Shown piece after piece: positions 10,542 to 21,856 of a stretch of 37,998 bases of DNA. The notes beneath the pieces were generated by a model. The model saw only the letters and a program-made list of their open reading frames with translations. It ran no database searches and was not told where the DNA came from. Source of the stretch: a virus; the IMG/VR virus record IMGVR_UViG_3300034120_000377, positions 1 through 37,998 of that record. One strand, 5' to 3'. Position 1 is the stretch's first letter. Every line of letters begins with the position of its first letter. The position numbers were made by a program, and so were the translations under genes.

Positions 10542-10722
10542 CAGCCGTGAAATTAGTAATAAATTTTCCAACCACACCACTTCCGAGACAGATGATGGCG
10601 ATATCCTTCTGCCCCTCCATGATGCCATAACTACTCGCAAGAGTACCGACACCGAGCAGCGTGTCACCGACTGCTCGCATCGTCTTCGTTGTCGGCTTCC
10701 AGTAATTAGTCCACTTTATCAT
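10468..10722 (-). CDS. Holin-like membrane protein, 84 aa
   Basis: Begins [19 protein letters not shown]. Two hydrophobic segments ([15 protein letters not shown] and [15 protein letters not shown]) are joined by a short polar loop and followed by a hydrophilic tail rich in D, N, S and T. Size and topology match class II-like holins of Bacteroidota phages, and the endolysin lies in the same block. The start overlaps the fibre stop (ATGA). Confidence 0.62.
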
Positions 10723-12077
10723 TGGAATGTCTGTGAGTTGATCTGAATACTATTGCCCTTCCAGAAAGGACTCTGGCGCATATCTTTCCAGCTCCAGTAG
10801 AAGGGCTTGACATTGCCCACCCACTTAGTCGCATCAGTCGGATCGAAGTATAACTCTTCAAAGTTCCATATGACTGATGTGCCTAATGTCTTCAATTTAC
10901 TTCCTCCTGTAAACCACGGAATATTCTTCACGTATAGGTGCGGATATCCAAGCACAGACTCAGCGTCTATCAGCACGTTGTCGTACTGACTGTACACATC
11001 GGAGATCGTCATATATCCTGACGCAAGTTTCACCTTGATCCCTGCTACCGTTGACTTGCTCTCGATGTGGAATCCTTCGATCTTCCCATCCTTCACCACT
11101 GTCGCTCCCTTAGAGTCCCAGAAGACATGATGCTGCGGATCGCCACCCTCGCTGATGCTCTGACGGATGATCACACCGGATGCACCGATGACTGAGATGG
11201 CACTGAAGTTACCACCACGATTGAAGACACGCACCTGCTCGATTAAAGAGTGATTGCTCTGTGCATTGCTGAGTCCTGCACCTGCCCAATCACCATTGTC
11301 AAGCACATAACTCTGTTCGCTGATGGAGTTGCTCAATGAATTGCGGATCGTGGTCATAAGTCCGAACTTAACATGGATGCCGACCTTCGCATTGATGACA
11401 TTGACTCCTTCAATGCGTGAGTTGTAGGTCGCACCAAGATCAAGCAGTGTGCCTGTCTGCGTTGCGCTCTTACCTTGTAACGCACCATTGAGCAAGATGA
11501 ATGCCCAACTCTGCATGATGTTCAGTGCTTCGTTCTGATCTGCTGGCTTTCGTCCTATGAGATAGGTCAGACCATTGGCAGAGTTATCAAATATCGTGTT
11601 TCCACACAAATCAATCACCATACCCTTGAATCTGTTGGGCGATGTCTTAGGTAGGTTGAGCGACTGCGTGAGTCCGATGTCTTGCACGATGTAAATCTTC
11701 GCAGCGTTAGCAGTGACTGCATTGCGTAGCTCTGTCTCGTTAGTGACATAGTATGTCTTCCCTGTCGGTATGCTTCCACCTCCACTGCCAGCAGGACCCT
11801 GTGGTCCCGGAGGACCCTGCGGTCCTGTCTCACCTTGCATACCCTGTGGACCTGTCAATCCAGTATTACCCAATGGACCTTGTGGACCCGCAGGACCTTG
11901 AGGTCCAGTCGCACCAAACGGAAGCACTACCTTTATCCATCCTTGTGGATCTTGCCACACGTATGATGTGTTATCATCCAAGATCATCAGATCACGATTC
12001 ACTTGGAATCCATTGGGACGAGTAGTGGGCAGTGCGTCTCTAAACCACAGCCGTGCTTGTTCAAGATTGTATTGCAT
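10719..12077 (-). CDS. Collagen-stalked beta-helix tail fibre / tailspike
   Basis: 452 residues. An N-terminal attachment region (1-53) is followed by Gly-X-Y collagen-like repeats (about 54-98, e.g. [13 protein letters not shown]) and a GSGGG hinge, then a long region of short parallel strands with the right-handed beta-helix look ([37 protein letters not shown]). Such proteins trimerise through the collagen stalk and bind or degrade surface polysaccharide. No catalytic residues could be assigned. The collagen codons are visibly repetitive at the DNA level (about 11785-11912). Confidence 0.82.
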
Positions 12078-12549
12078 CTATGCGTTTAATTTGAAAGTGC
12101 ATACCATCAGGAGTAGTGCGCCAGTCAGCACCGCAGTCCATGTAAGATCGACTCACCTTGATGAACTCCTTGCTGAATGGTTTCAACCCTCTCTCGATGG
12201 CTTGCTCTCTGGTTAGTTTAAATGGATTGTGAGTAGCGTTGAAGTCTATCGCCATACCGAAGGCATGGACGCTAAGTGTACTCTGCCCTCTCTTATTGCG
12301 GACATTCCAGCATCCATCATAGGTCTTGATCTCTTTGATCAGATCACCGAAGGTGAGAGCAGTGAGCCAGACATCAACGACATCAATGAACTCTCGGTGC
12401 ATATAGATGATGTTTGGCAGGAACGGATTCTTCTCTTTGATGAATCCGGGTACACGATAGTACCTCATGTTCTGCCTCTCCCACGCAGATGTGTTGATGC
12501 GTGGATCACCGTACGCTTGTATGAGTTCGCTGCTACTGATTAAAGACAT
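12061..12549 (-). CDS. M15-family peptidase endolysin (VanY/DD- or LD-endopeptidase type)
   Basis: 162 residues. [15 protein letters not shown] (90-104) gives the SxHxxGxAxD zinc motif with His95 and Asp102, and DGMHFQ supplies the third ligand His151; [13 protein letters not shown] is the usual C-terminal block. The enzyme cleaves peptidoglycan stem peptides to release progeny. No signal peptide, so a holin would be needed for access. Overlaps the membrane gene upstream by 17 bases and the fibre downstream by 17. Confidence 0.9.
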
Positions 12550-12733
12550 ATCTCTCTACTCTTGTTAATCTGTCTTCGTGGTATTCGATTCGCTCACTCT
12601 GTTGGATCACCTTATCTCTGGTCAGCTTGAAGTCACGGTAGATATCCGCAACTAAGAAGGTGATGACAGGCAAGAACAAGATGGTTGACCATTGATGCAG
12701 GTGCGTGACTACTTGCTTCTGTTGTGGAGACAT
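12533..12733 (-). CDS. Small single-TM protein, candidate holin or spanin component
   Basis: 66 residues. One hydrophobic helix (STILFLPVITFLVADIY, about 16-32) is followed by a charged coiled coil (RDKVIQQSERIEYHEDRL). It directly precedes and overlaps the endolysin gene, the usual place for a holin or lysis accessory protein. Topology N-out/C-in or the reverse cannot be decided. Confidence 0.65.
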   Translation of the reverse strand: MSPQQKQVVTHLHQWSTILFLPVITFLVADIYRDFKLTRDKVIQQSERIEYHEDRLTRVERYVFNQ

Positions 12734-12736
12734 ATA

Positions 12737-14128
12737 TCAATTCAATGGTTTCTCGAATCGTACTCGTGATATTACAGGCACAGTTGCTGTTGCCCAGATG
12801 TTCGGATAGGTAACAGTGTTGATCACATCAGCAGCGGTGGATGGTCCACCTTGCAGAGTGATGTTCTTCAAGTCCCATGATGATGTGCCTCCGGTAGTAT
12901 CAATCTGCTTTAGTTTCCACGACTGATTCGTGAGGCAGTCCCTGATCACGATGTGATTAGTTGCATTCACAGACTCTGACTCCAACAACACTACGTTAGC
13001 AGCCGATGATTGCCAGAAGACTCTTCGCACCTCACAGGTGAATGGATCACTACCCTTTATGCCGATGATGGCATTTGTGTACTTGTTGCCACCACCGATC
13101 TCTGCGTGGACACCGCTGATCAGAACATTCTTCGCCACCGTTGTAGAAGAGTTGTCTATGTAGATGCCATACGCACCATCAGTGCCTTCGACTGTACAGC
13201 GATAGAACTCTACGCTGTCGCAACCGATGATCCCTGCACCGATAGAGCTGGGGTCTGTGGTTCTGAATCGGCAGTTGACAAACATCGGTTGATTGCCAGC
13301 AGTAGAATATCCTGCACCACTCCACCATCCCTTGTCGATCTTCACACCATACTCAGCGCAGAAGTTAGTGTTGACATTAGTGAATAGAGAATTGAGCAGA
13401 AATCCACCTTCAAATCCATTGGCATCAAGACCTTCAAATTCCACGTTTCTCATGTCGAGCGATCGACACGCACCGAGCCTCATCCCTACCGATACACCTC
13501 CACCGGGACCTTGCACGATCTTACAGTTCGACCATGCCCATGTATTGAATATCGCCTTGTCATCTGCTTCAGTCTGATCTGCAATCTCTGATGTGAATCC
13601 ATACGGCTGCGATCCACGACAGAAGAAGGTGCATCCTTGCCCATCGAAGACGAACTGATTCGGATACCCTGATGATCCAGTCCCCTTGTATGCAGGAAGT
13701 ATGATCTCATGCCCTGATAGGATGAAGTCACCATACCCTGCATTGAGTTGCTTGATCTTGTTGCTTCCAAGACCGAGCGTCAGGAACGCTTCTTGAATCA
13801 CAGCAGTATCGTAATCAGTGGAGGAAGCAGTGATGCTCCCCCATGCAGCAGCAGTGAGAGGGAACTGTGTCGCTGCTGATCCATCGGTATATCCGAGTGA
13901 TGATAGCGTGCGTGGTGTGCCTGTCCCTACCGTGTTAGTACCATCTTCGAAGTCAGCGAAGCGCAGCGTATTGCCACCTGTCACGGTGACATTGCTGACG
14001 AGTCCACCGATGTCTCCGAGTGTTAGCGATCTGTCGATGTACTGACCACCACTGAAGCGTGCGACACGCACAAGGTCATTGCCCTGTGCGTTCACACCAT
14101 CTGTAAGTTGAGATATCTTCTGTCCCAT
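12737..14128 (-). CDS. Beta-helix tail fibre / receptor-binding protein
   Basis: 463 residues. N-terminal MGQKISQLTDG plus a repeated domain look (DLVRVARFSGGQYIDRSL) resembles the N-termini of phage tail fibre subunits that attach to the tail; it then runs into repeated short strands with Asn/Gly/Cys turns (CKIVQGPGGGVSVGMRLG, NVEFEGLDANGFEGGF, CTVEGTDGAYGIYIDNS) of a pectate-lyase-like right-handed beta-helix. Probably recognises capsule or O-antigen. ATG is 3 bases after the stop of the frameshifted tail tube extension. Confidence 0.78.
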   Translation of the reverse strand: MGQKISQLTDGVNAQGNDLVRVARFSGGQYIDRSLTLGDIGGLVSNVTVTGGNTLRFADFEDGTNTVGTGTPRTLSSLGYTDGSAATQFPLTAAAWGSITASSTDYDTAVIQEAFLTLGLGSNKIKQLNAGYGDFILSGHEIILPAYKGTGSSGYPNQFVFDGQGCTFFCRGSQPYGFTSEIADQTEADDKAIFNTWAWSNCKIVQGPGGGVSVGMRLGACRSLDMRNVEFEGLDANGFEGGFLLNSLFTNVNTNFCAEYGVKIDKGWWSGAGYSTAGNQPMFVNCRFRTTDPSSIGAGIIGCDSVEFYRCTVEGTDGAYGIYIDNSSTTVAKNVLISGVHAEIGGGNKYTNAIIGIKGSDPFTCEVRRVFWQSSAANVVLLESESVNATNHIVIRDCLTNQSWKLKQIDTTGGTSSWDLKNITLQGGPSTAADVINTVTYPNIWATATVPVISRVRFEKPLN

Positions 14129-14131
14129 TGA

Positions 14132-14224
14132 TTAAGTTTCAAGCAGTGAATAATCACCATCCTCTAAGAGTGCAGGTAGCCCATCTTCCAGCAGTTCGAA
14201 GTTGCCATCTTCAGGCTCTACACT
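14132..14224 (-). CDS. -1 frame C-terminal extension of the tail tube protein
   Basis: 30 sense codons open in the -1 frame after the slippery site, encoding SVEPEDGNFELLEDG, then LPALLEDG and DYSLLET, followed by TAA at 14132-14134. The repeated LLEDG unit and strong acidic bias look like coding sequence, and the frame ends 3 bases before the next gene's ATG. Without it there would be an 89-base gap. It would give a 213-residue long form. Alternatives are an independent GTG-started 35-aa gene or a sequencing indel. Confidence 0.62.
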   Translation of the reverse strand, partial: SVEPEDGNFELLEDGLPALLEDGDYSLLET

Positions 14225-14772
14225 AAAGGGATATAACACTGATCGAACGTACCCTCAGGAGTAGGGTAGGGACATGGCAAGTTGCTGTTCTGCCACTTCA
14301 CTTGTACCTCATAGGTAACAACTGCCTTCAGATCATCAGCTATTGGAATCTTAGGAGTGATCGTTGCTGGCGCACCTGCCTCCCATATCTTGCTCGATGT
14401 TCTGAACCATACAGTGTAGTCACTGCTGTTCTTAATCGCATTGTAGAAGTTGCAGTTTGTAGTTGAGTTCGGGTCTTTGTAAGTCAGAATGTGAGTTGCA
14501 CCACCATTGTTTGTCTCGGCATCGCCAAATCCAACAACCTCTTCAATGACACTCCCGTCATAAGATCCCGAAGTTGCCCATATTACAATGATGTCTCCTG
14601 TTCCGAGTCCTGTATTCCACTCATTAGGATCGGAAGGATCGGTAAATGAGAATGTGTTCTTGACGAACGCCACCGATCTGATTCTCGCAGTTTCAAATTC
14701 TGGGCAAGGGTTACAGCTATACTGTGGAATTGCACCACCTCCACAATTAGACGCTGGATAATATACTGACAT
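14218..14772 (-). CDS. Major tail (tube) protein, unshifted form
   Basis: 184 residues. After a Cys/Pro-rich N-terminus (CGGGAIPQYSCNPCPEFE) the sequence runs ARIRSVAFVKNTFSFTDPSD, WNTGLGTGDIIVIW, GSYDGSVIEEVVGFGD, then LTYKDPNSTTNCNFYNAI and DLKAVVTYEVQVKWQNSNLP. I recall this pattern from the tail tube proteins of Bacteroidota phages. It lies just after the tail completion gene, as expected. The stop TAG at 14218-14220 is two codons after a CCCTTTA slippery heptamer, and a -1 shift extends the protein by 30 residues (see 14132-14224). Confidence 0.7.
   Translation of the reverse strand: MSVYYPASNCGGGAIPQYSCNPCPEFETARIRSVAFVKNTFSFTDPSDPNEWNTGLGTGDIIVIWATSGSYDGSVIEEVVGFGDAETNNGGATHILTYKDPNSTTNCNFYNAIKNSSDYTVWFRTSSKIWEAGAPATITPKIPIADDLKAVVTYEVQVKWQNSNLPCPYPTPEGTFDQCYIPLV
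14224..14230 (-). promoter_or_regulatory. Candidate -1 ribosomal slippery heptamer C_CCU_UUA
   Basis: Minus strand reads CCCTTTA in phase (ATC CCT TTA GTG TAG), the X_XXY_YYZ form. The TAG is two codons downstream. Tandem slippage puts the ribosome into the open extension frame. No strong downstream hairpin is apparent by eye. Confidence 0.6.
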
Positions 14773-19253: not shown

Positions 19254-20177
19254 CTATTTTCCTGCGAATTTATCACGCAATTTCTTCGGCACAATGGCTG
19301 CGCTGACAGCGTATAACTGATGGTTGCAATTGTACCCACCTCGATTGATGCGGAAGTTGGCAGCGTTCGTTCCGGGTATCATCCCTTGCGGAAGTCCTGT
19401 CTTGTCATAGATCGGGACCCTCTCTCCGCAGACATAGCCATCCACGATCTCCTGCAACTGACTGCGATGGATGAAAGGCATACAGCCCTTCTTCGCTTCG
19501 ATCAGCGCATCACAGATCGGTCGTGATGTGTCTTTGAGTGATCCACTATACTGATACCATTCCAGACCGAGATCGTCAGTCAGGACTGCTGAGTAGTTGG
19601 CAGAATACTGATTGAGGGAATCTGTCACGATCTGCTTGGTGTACTTGGCTAACTTACCTTCCCCTGCATCTGTGTCGAGGATGTATTCACGCACCTGCTC
19701 GATGAACTCTGCACGGCTTCCTCCTGTGGTCACGTTCTTGACGAGGATGTCACGCACCGGGTCCACGAAGTTTACACCGATTGCATCTTGTCCGAGCTGA
19801 TCTATCACTGACTCCCGTGCAAGGCTGCTGATCTGCTCCATCACCGAAGGCACTTTGAACTTGCCTACCGTAGCAGTGAAATATTGGTTCTGCAACTTAG
19901 TAATCTCGTTGTAGTCTTCCAGCAGAAGATCGAGATCGTCCTGATATCGCTTGTCGAAGATCACTCTGTTGAGTTCATCCTTGATCTTGCTGATGATCTT
20001 GATGTTCTTAGTCGTTGGCTTGATCTTACCATCCGCATCTGTGTCGAGGTCAGCAGTCAGGTTCAGCACGACATCATAGGACTGACGCTGGAGTTCTGGC
20101 ATACGCTCCCCCCACTGAGATACACGCATCTCAATGACCTCTGTCAGTTGCTCAATGATCTCTGCTTGTGTAGCCAT
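19254..20177 (-). CDS. MuF-like head morphogenesis protein
   Basis: 307 residues. A helical N-terminal part is followed by the C-terminal MuF-type domain: DTSRPICDALIEA, IHRSQLQEIVDGYV, PGTNAANFRINRGGYNCNHQ. The D-T-R-x-x-C and the closing RxGxxCxHxL are family hallmarks. It lies directly after the portal gene, as usual, and is normally a minor head protein needed for assembly. Overlaps the portal stop by one base. Confidence 0.85.
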   Translation of the reverse strand: MATQAEIIEQLTEVIEMRVSQWGERMPELQRQSYDVVLNLTADLDTDADGKIKPTTKNIKIISKIKDELNRVIFDKRYQDDLDLLLEDYNEITKLQNQYFTATVGKFKVPSVMEQISSLARESVIDQLGQDAIGVNFVDPVRDILVKNVTTGGSRAEFIEQVREYILDTDAGEGKLAKYTKQIVTDSLNQYSANYSAVLTDDLGLEWYQYSGSLKDTSRPICDALIEAKKGCMPFIHRSQLQEIVDGYVCGERVPIYDKTGLPQGMIPGTNAANFRINRGGYNCNHQLYAVSAAIVPKKLRDKFAGK

Positions 20178-21856
20178 TATAATCCAGTATCAGGAGGTGT
20201 CGCTGGTAGTCGTGATGGTGTGCGCTCCCTTGCGTATTGCAGCATCTGATTCATCTGCTCCTGATATGTAAGTCCTGCGAAGTTCTCAATCTCATTGATT
20301 GCACGACTCACGAACTTGTTGATGTTGGCATGGATGATAAGATCGTCCTGTTCAATCGCTCCGTACATACGTTGAAGACTGATGTTCTCCTCCGGCACTC
20401 CTGCGAATGGATCGAGTCTCAACTTCAACACCACCATATCCTTCACGTCACTATCGTTGAACTTCTTCCCGGCAAGCTCAATCTGCGCTGCGTTGATGAT
20501 CGCAGGATCAACCTTCGCCTGTACCATACTTGTCAACTCATCAACAAGGACCTTGCCACTAAGCATATCATAACGTTCAGGGACTGGTATGTATGGCAAC
20601 AACTCTCTGATGTCATTGGTCACACCTGAGTATCTCCATGCACAGATGTCATAGATCACCTCGTCCATGATGCGAACGATGTCCTCTGCGATGCTATGGA
20701 CGAACGAGTACAACTCTTCACGATCTACTTGCTTGGCAACGCCTGATTGAGCAAGTGGACTCTCTGCAAGGAACTCCATGTTGATAGCACTCAGCGCATC
20801 GTAGATATGCTGACGGATGCGCTCTTCTTGTATCTTGACAATCTCAGTATCCTTCTGTACATAGCCAATCGGAGGAGTAGGTATCGCTGGCTCTCCTGCT
20901 CTGGGTACTGCAAGGATCAAATGCTCGAACGGATTCAATGGCATCAGTCCCTTGCCCGAACAACTTGAACACTTTACGGGTGCTGAATTCTCCTTCGGTA
21001 TCTCACCGAGTCCCTTGCATCGTCCGCACTGCTGCGGTTGCATCGACCATAGTGTGCTATGAATATGTTGTACCACCTCTGACTGGAGGTCACTGTATTC
21101 ACGCACAGCCTCATTCATCTTAGGCACGATGCCACTGATGCGAGACTCATACAAAGCACGATGCTCATAGTTCTCAAGCACCATGCCATACGTGTGTCTG
21201 CATGGTATGTATCCGAGTGGATTGACCGCCTGAAATACCTCACGTACTTGGTAGTCTTTGACTTCAAATATCTGAATCACATCGGGCTGAATCATCCAAT
21301 ACTTATCCTGATCATGCTCCTTGAGCAGATAGAACATACCCTCCTTGTAATCCAGTACATCAGGTGCGTTGAAGATCATCGGATAGGGTTGGAAGTATTC
21401 ATTGTCTGGTATCTCCCATCGTGTCGGCAGAGTGAGGATGACAGCGTTCGCATCAATCAGATACTGCTTCATGCACACACCGAACATCCAGTTGGTGATG
21501 CTCCCATTGCGAGGAAACTTATACATGAGATACTTCTCAGGTGACTCGTCCTCGCTGATGCGTGGAGGAAGATCACCAGAGAATTGAATCATCCAGTCCT
21601 GACTCTTGCGAATCTTCATCAGTGAGTTCTGAATCTTGGTGAACACAGGCTTTGTGATCGGAACGAATATCTTCTTGCGATAGTTCTTTATGTCTTCACT
21701 CTCAGCAGGTCTGCGCTGATCAATAAGATCATGTGGATACTCACCATCTGCGTGGACTTCAAGTTCCTCGTATAACTCATACGCATCATCATAGTCTTCG
21801 TGCCTGTGCTTCTGCATCAGGTATGGTTCGAGGAAAGAGGGAGATACTATCGGCAT
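20177..21856 (-). CDS. Portal protein with an internal DnaJ-type zinc-ribbon pair
   Basis: 559 residues. Helical with an N-terminal RPAESEDIKNYRKKIF and central strands, positioned before MuF, scaffold and capsid. Two CxxCxGxG motifs, CGRCKGLG near 274-281 and CSSCSGKG near 295-302, resemble half of the DnaJ cysteine-rich domain and should bind zinc. They sit just before the VQKDTEIVKIQEERIRQ helix, where the portal stem/clip is expected. I infer portal from gene order, length and composition. Confidence 0.78.
   Translation of the reverse strand: MPIVSPSFLEPYLMQKHRHEDYDDAYELYEELEVHADGEYPHDLIDQRRPAESEDIKNYRKKIFVPITKPVFTKIQNSLMKIRKSQDWMIQFSGDLPPRISEDESPEKYLMYKFPRNGSITNWMFGVCMKQYLIDANAVILTLPTRWEIPDNEYFQPYPMIFNAPDVLDYKEGMFYLLKEHDQDKYWMIQPDVIQIFEVKDYQVREVFQAVNPLGYIPCRHTYGMVLENYEHRALYESRISGIVPKMNEAVREYSDLQSEVVQHIHSTLWSMQPQQCGRCKGLGEIPKENSAPVKCSSCSGKGLMPLNPFEHLILAVPRAGEPAIPTPPIGYVQKDTEIVKIQEERIRQHIYDALSAINMEFLAESPLAQSGVAKQVDREELYSFVHSIAEDIVRIMDEVIYDICAWRYSGVTNDIRELLPYIPVPERYDMLSGKVLVDELTSMVQAKVDPAIINAAQIELAGKKFNDSDVKDMVVLKLRLDPFAGVPEENISLQRMYGAIEQDDLIIHANINKFVSRAINEIENFAGLTYQEQMNQMLQYARERTPSRLPATPPDTGL

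Follow-up and report, generated by a model that had tools for sequence, protein, structure and literature searches.

The window, i.e. the whole 37,998-nucleotide stretch of viral DNA analysed here, contains on its minus strand an open reading frame of 184 codons (14218..14772, minus strand) taken as encoding the short form of the tail tube (major tail) protein. Its 3′ end reads ATC CCT TTA GTG TAG, in which the candidate slippery heptamer CCCTTTA (14224..14230, minus strand) sits in X_XXY_YYZ phase (C_CCT_TTA) and is separated by a single codon, GTG, from the zero-frame stop TAG (14218..14220, minus strand). In the -1 reading, CCC TTT is followed by AGT GTA GAG ... GAA ACT TAA, which gives an extension of 30 codons plus stop (SVEPEDGNFELLEDGLPALLEDGDYSLLET; 14132..14224, minus strand), with the codons at 14224-14135 and the TAA at 14134-14132. 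The +1 frame after the site closes after two codons in the window.

The predicted long product, reading ...CYIPLSVEPEDG... across the frameshift junction, comprises 183 + 30 = 213 aa. The tail of this extension is built of 8-residue LLEDG repeats, two full ones and a half (LLEDGLPA, LLEDGDYS and LLET; 14135..14194, minus strand), which are putatively an anchor and resemble tails at other loci. Just three bases past the extension stop, at 14128, lies the ATG of the next gene (12737..14128, minus strand). It encodes a 463-aa protein, a probable tail appendage, with the N-terminus KISQLTDG...DLV and a weak match to a right-handed beta-helix (Pfam Beta_helix, E 0.0014, below the cut-off). The positions and lengths given for site and extension, including the in-phase heptamer, the repeat-bearing extension ending three bases before the next ATG and the 213-aa long form, agree with the preliminary description of the locus.

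Further along lies the gene of a 66-aa protein (12533..12733, minus strand), which forms the far edge of an insert according to blastn of the window against the relative L008 and the gene lists. Beyond it, a small endolysin-like gene (12061-12549) precedes a second appendage gene (10719-12077, minus strand) with collagen-like G-x-y repeats and tail-fibre matches.

Identity and surroundings of the tube gene

Searches of the tube gene against Pfam, PHROGs and the sequences of the PDB returned no match, and no relatives of the tube, its extension or the extension of the related locus L022 were found among annotated phages (50,697 records for the tube). IMG/VR holds dozens of tube relatives with 35-98% identity, and three further ones occur in metagenome-assembled Bacteroidota genomes, all of the relatives being metagenomic. 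An AF2 model built from 46 homologues reached a pLDDT of 85, compared with 48 when 14 sequences were used. The VIA-align Z of this model is 8.3 both against lambda gpV (135 aa aligned) and against the 80alpha tube, and 7.6 against SPP1 gp17.1 (6yeg), where a Z of 8 is middling and the Foldseek E-values are weak (best 0.009). Among the structural matches listed, nearly all belong to the tube, neck, baseplate or Hcp proteins. In gene order, the portal is followed by genes of connector type, then by a 144-aa protein with a match to tail phrog_6195 (E 1.5e-6) and by a 200-aa ORF, after which comes the tube gene. Because of the structural alignment together with this gene order, the 184-aa product is taken as a tail tube protein, which bears out the identity proposed earlier.

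The portal gene (20177-21856, minus strand) was recognised by phrog_7376 (E 3e-14). Residues 270-308 of its product form a cysteine-rich patch matching the Anti-TRAP (E 1.5e-4) and DnaJ zinc-binding (0.005) profiles, both below the cut-offs, and this patch is possibly a zinc-binding insert. The order of the region 34000-12000 (minus strand) is unusual, with terminase, tape measure and minor tail genes preceding the portal, connectors and tail tube, and with the tape measure and tube genes ~12 kb apart.

Comparative evidence for a -1 frameshift

As a mere string, CCCTTTA is not more frequent than chance, occurring twice in the window against 1.27 expected and as often in 31 of 100 shuffles. Since the heptamer is expected about once in such a window, the argument for frameshifting must be carried by comparison. 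On the sequences compared here, what goes beyond chance is the phase and place of the heptamer taken together with a conserved C_CCT_TTR and a synonymous-biased change in the -1 frame.

C_CCT_TTR is present at six of six loci with this open -1 extension, namely the window, L001, L003, L051, L021 and L022, the heptamer being either C_CCT_TTA or C_CCT_TTG. These loci represent three divergent tube backgrounds, a small number of extension-bearing lineages for CCCTTTR; the tubes of L001 and L003 are 91-98% identical to that of the window and those of L051, L021 and L022 are 66%, 65% and 64% identical, respectively. The check for retention of CCCTTTA in homologous loci, as suggested in the preliminary description, thus returned a conserved site. 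In contrast, C_CCT_TTR was found in none of the 46 relatives counted as being without this extension, and only two of these (one of them L136) have any in-phase XXXYYYZ at that place.

Furthermore, the extension has changed as a protein-coding sequence would. A comparison of the L051 and L021 extensions gives 16 base differences, distributed as 5, 1 and 10 over the -1-frame codon positions, and these changes alter only 2 amino acids compared with 10.3 expected, a value as low being reached in 0 of 100,000 random trials. Between the window and L051, 4 amino-acid changes are found against 11.4 expected. The tests of -1-frame selection gave P about 1e-5 or less, and the zero and +1 frames of the extension region are interrupted by stops. 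By these substitution patterns, the extension is under protein-level purifying selection in the -1 frame. L021 and L022 possess near-identical tubes and the same C_CCT_TTG followed by extensions of 29 aa and about 136 aa, respectively. In L022, about 107 extra residues, with a weak match to the Ig-like Pfam family PF24025 (E 0.024, below the cut-off), are placed ahead of the LLEDG repeats, and the slip site is kept.

A one-base sequencing or assembly error in what is truly a single in-frame fusion, already raised as a caveat in the preliminary description, is a general possibility in metagenome contigs. The same arrangement of stop and shifted frame occurs in contigs of five other metagenomes, where the stops differ and third codon positions have changed, and this independent recurrence rules the error out, leaving it next to no probability. 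The -1 frame might also yield a separate small protein through re-initiation, for instance at the GTG of CAGTG just before the slip site, and in the window, L001 and L003 this frame does contain a GTG ahead of the heptamer. In L051, L021 and L022, the stretch from the last -1 stop to the extension itself contains no -1-frame ATG, GTG or TTG, yet these loci conserve both extension and slip site. Re-initiation at such codons can therefore not be the shared mechanism, and we consider it extremely unlikely.

Judging from the conserved site and the selection in the -1 frame, the phage very probably makes a short and a long tube protein by a programmed -1 slip, as had been put forward for this locus. 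We have high confidence that the recoding step takes place at C_CCT_TTA. Most ribosomes would end at the TAG and release the 184-aa tube protein, while a minority would shift by -1 at C_CCT_TTA, producing the 213-aa protein with its LLEDG-repeat tail.

No downstream RNA stimulator common to all extension loci was found. In the window, no persuasive stimulatory fold lies behind the site (z about +0.5 at spacers of 5-8; another estimate gave z -1.2), and a pronounced hairpin occurs in L022 alone (z about -2 to -3). The stop codon adjacent to the slip site may serve instead of a stimulatory structure and would perhaps in this way aid slippage. In relatives L004-L013, which lack the extension and the 463-aa gene, the tube gene is immediately followed by a hairpin of terminator type (GGGGAGGGTAACACCTCCCC), which is absent in the window.

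Probable frameshifted tube extensions in distant relatives, and known phage cases

The more distant tube relatives L065, L067, L069 and L070 (35-39% identity) have -1 extensions of 207-219 aa. The first three enter the extension at GAR YTG GGG GAR TAA (GGGGGAR), in a stretch where the -1 stop and the zero-frame stop are four codons apart, and L070 shows eight G in a row. In L065 and L067, the open -1 frame ends where the next gene starts. GGGGGAA is a described phage frameshift motif, 'fivetwo' of PRFect, which is matched exactly in L067; it was described for annotated phage frameshift genes and differs from the site of the window (PMC10885494). Since the CCCTTTR and GGGGGAR sites differ, the tube family has reached -1 extensions at least twice, i.e. 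one family arrives at different extensions via different slip sites.

Two additional relatives deserve mention. The tube gene of L136 (3487-3600; a Chitinophagales MAG) ends in GAT TTT TTA GCA TAG, containing a perfect T_TTT_TTA, and is followed by an acidic -1 extension of 22 codons and then by an appendage-like gene (MGLLSLFKRSVKGSKLTSAELDQNW); it is a possible third independent case of a frameshift extension. In L128 (3040-3730), the tube relative is followed by a -1 ORF of 220 aa with the SD-like GGAGGAGG just before a GTG, an arrangement that fits frameshifting and separate initiation alike.

Tube proteins extended by frameshifting are already known. In SPP1, a +1 shift at CCC_UAA adds an 87-aa FN3 domain to yield gp17.1* (PMC6316719, PMC8718954), and short and long subunits are mixed 3:1 in the tail (PMC8718954). 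SPP1 and the phage studied here share the tube fold and a C-terminally extended form made by a frameshift at the gene end, whereas the shift proposed here is -1 at C_CCU_UUA, the addition is a 30-aa repeat tail and an appendage gene follows. The Tsh proteins of Listeria phages PSA, A118 and A500 likewise give a second major-tail product through a frameshift at a proline codon beside the stop, but the shift is +1 at CCC_UGA (PMC5009743). The SPP1 and PSA precedents invoked in the preliminary description therefore hold as cases of extended tube forms made by frameshifting; both use +1 shifts at CCC-stop and are thus analogues and not examples of the same mechanism.

The lactococcal 936 phages also place a frameshift-fused extension on a tail protein, with MTP-TpeX made at the +1 shifty stop CCC.UAG and the fusion seen in virions (PMC4759559). 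Here TpeX is a carbohydrate-binding module (CBM) which binds host cells (PMC6669499), and the region around mtp is a rearrangement hotspot (PMC4759559, PMC6669499), a further likeness to the present locus. The differences are the +1 shift and the CBM of the 936 phages compared with a -1 shift and a short repeat tail in our phage. Like lambda gpG/gpGT, our locus has its probable -1 shift close to where a tail gene ends, but the lambda product is a chaperone serving another purpose and not a virion tube subunit; -1 frameshifted Ig-like extensions have also been noted on other virion proteins (PMC5009743). In the window, the extension does not arise by +1 at a CCC-stop and contains no folded Ig, FN3 or CBM domain and no Pfam match. 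Our locus is set apart by its -1 heptamer C_CCU_UUR and, as the novel part, by a very short tail of 8-residue repeats that is coupled to an appendage gene.

Repeat tails and the probable appendage cassette

In relatives without the extension and the 463-aa gene, the 66-aa gene directly follows the tube gene. This is the arrangement of L008, where the tube and 66-aa genes are adjacent and, by blastn, the extra DNA of the window (extension plus 463-aa gene) falls between them. Homologues of the 463-aa protein (74-79% identical) were found only beside C_CCT_TTR tubes, and a final scan with the 463-aa family revealed no additional loci. The clade of the window, L001 and L003 (the window clade) is placed by the tube tree among extension-less tubes, apart from L051, L021 and L022, and joining both extension groups as one clade is rejected (p-AU 2.6e-5). 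Both groups nevertheless have homologous tails and next genes of 74-79% identity, above the tube identity of 64-66%. Since two tube clades that cannot be united in the tree both possess the slip site, the extension and the next gene, these three seem to travel together as a cassette, and the lack of both site and extension in most relatives points to an acquired module. From these comparisons, the slip site, tail and appendage gene appear to be inherited and exchanged as one cassette, with repeated loss as the formal alternative to transfer.

Such an insert in the window clade could also have left the -1 ORF as an untranslated, out-of-frame remnant of another phage's protein, recombined in with the appendage gene. 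Similar tails do terminate other carrier proteins elsewhere, and for Ig-like domains it has been suggested that a frameshift came into use once the domain had by chance landed out of frame (PMC5009743). A remnant would not be expected to show protein-level selection in the -1 frame and C_CCT_TTR at all six loci, nor a locus which gained a longer open frame with its site unharmed, and we regard this origin as very unlikely.

Within the tube-family loci, all 11 KIS[QE]L appendage genes found follow a repeat tail, which is located on two different carriers: the -1 extension in six loci and, in L054, L057, L058, L059 and L060, an unrelated protein of GYKF type (the tails of L054 and L057 having TEAG instead of TEDG). 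To extend this comparison, new contigs were fetched by the pattern KIS[QE]L-x12-x-VVQG, and a tail regex fixed beforehand from the tube-family loci was applied. It matched 5 of 36 distinct upstream proteins compared with 3 of 741 other genes of these loci (p 8e-6), and a broader motif, chosen after looking, matched 18/38 and 42/786, respectively. Of 23 double-repeat tails, at loci pre-selected for KIS[QE]L genes, 17 lie immediately ahead of a gene of KIS[QE]L type, and the remaining six precede other genes, several of them appendage-like. Over half of the KIS[QE]L genes are not preceded by a tail of this kind, so other attachments must exist. The measured association suggests that the short repeat tails are an anchor peptide that would bind the product of the next gene.

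By analogy with SPP1, short and long subunits would form mixed rings in the tail shaft with their C-termini outside. The repeat tail would then dock the beta-helix-like 463-aa protein encoded three bases downstream, and the fraction of tube subunits set by the frameshift would carry this appendage (adhesin) along the shaft. For the anchoring of the KISQL protein, a probable beta-helix adhesin, by the repeat tail, we see the chances as evenly balanced. The whole explanation, combining a frameshifted tube, an anchor tail and an appendage cassette, is the one we favour with modest confidence. It would extend frameshift-dosed tail decoration to an uncultured phage lineage, whose nearest cellular matches are Bacteroidota genomes, and it offers a testable rule for adhesin swapping, whereby the appendage gene moves with a short anchor tail and the slip sets the number of carrier subunits.

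The frameshift may also be real and the tail partnerless, acting as an acidic decoration or modulating host contact or assembly, as proposed for the Ig-like and CBM tube extensions. Known frameshifted extensions such as SPP1 FN3 and 936 TpeX CBM act alone (PMC8718954, PMC6669499), and by the gene lists no KIS[QE]L gene follows the extension in L065, L067 and L070. Against this, the tail of the window, with its 8-residue repeats, spans only 30 aa, less than a binding domain usually needs, and tails of this kind are found again on carriers unrelated to each other, immediately ahead of appendage genes. We therefore consider a partnerless tail rather unlikely.

Extending the anchor-tail explanation, we tentatively propose, at somewhat less than an even chance, that C-terminal tails of the form LLxE[DASTN]G-x-x may constitute an anchor code that is widespread among tailed phages and so far undescribed, in which the appendage of KIS[QE]L type encoded next is attached to whichever structural protein bears the tail, and the present lineage doses the anchor along the tail shaft by frameshifting. 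A literature search for LLTEDG/LLEDG repeats found no relevant description. Scanning for the KISQLTD pattern retrieved mostly unrelated proteins, and matches in Cyanophage KBS-S-2A, DSL-LC05, QHHSV-1 and Flavobacterium were set aside, the matched gene having no repeat tail upstream. The pairing of repeat tail and appendage gene occurs as well in the isolate Erythrobacter phage ZS04, where an annotated tail protein ends in LRLTEDGDVRATEAGDLRVLEA, and an annotated minor tail protein starting with MATKKISEL begins at the base after it.
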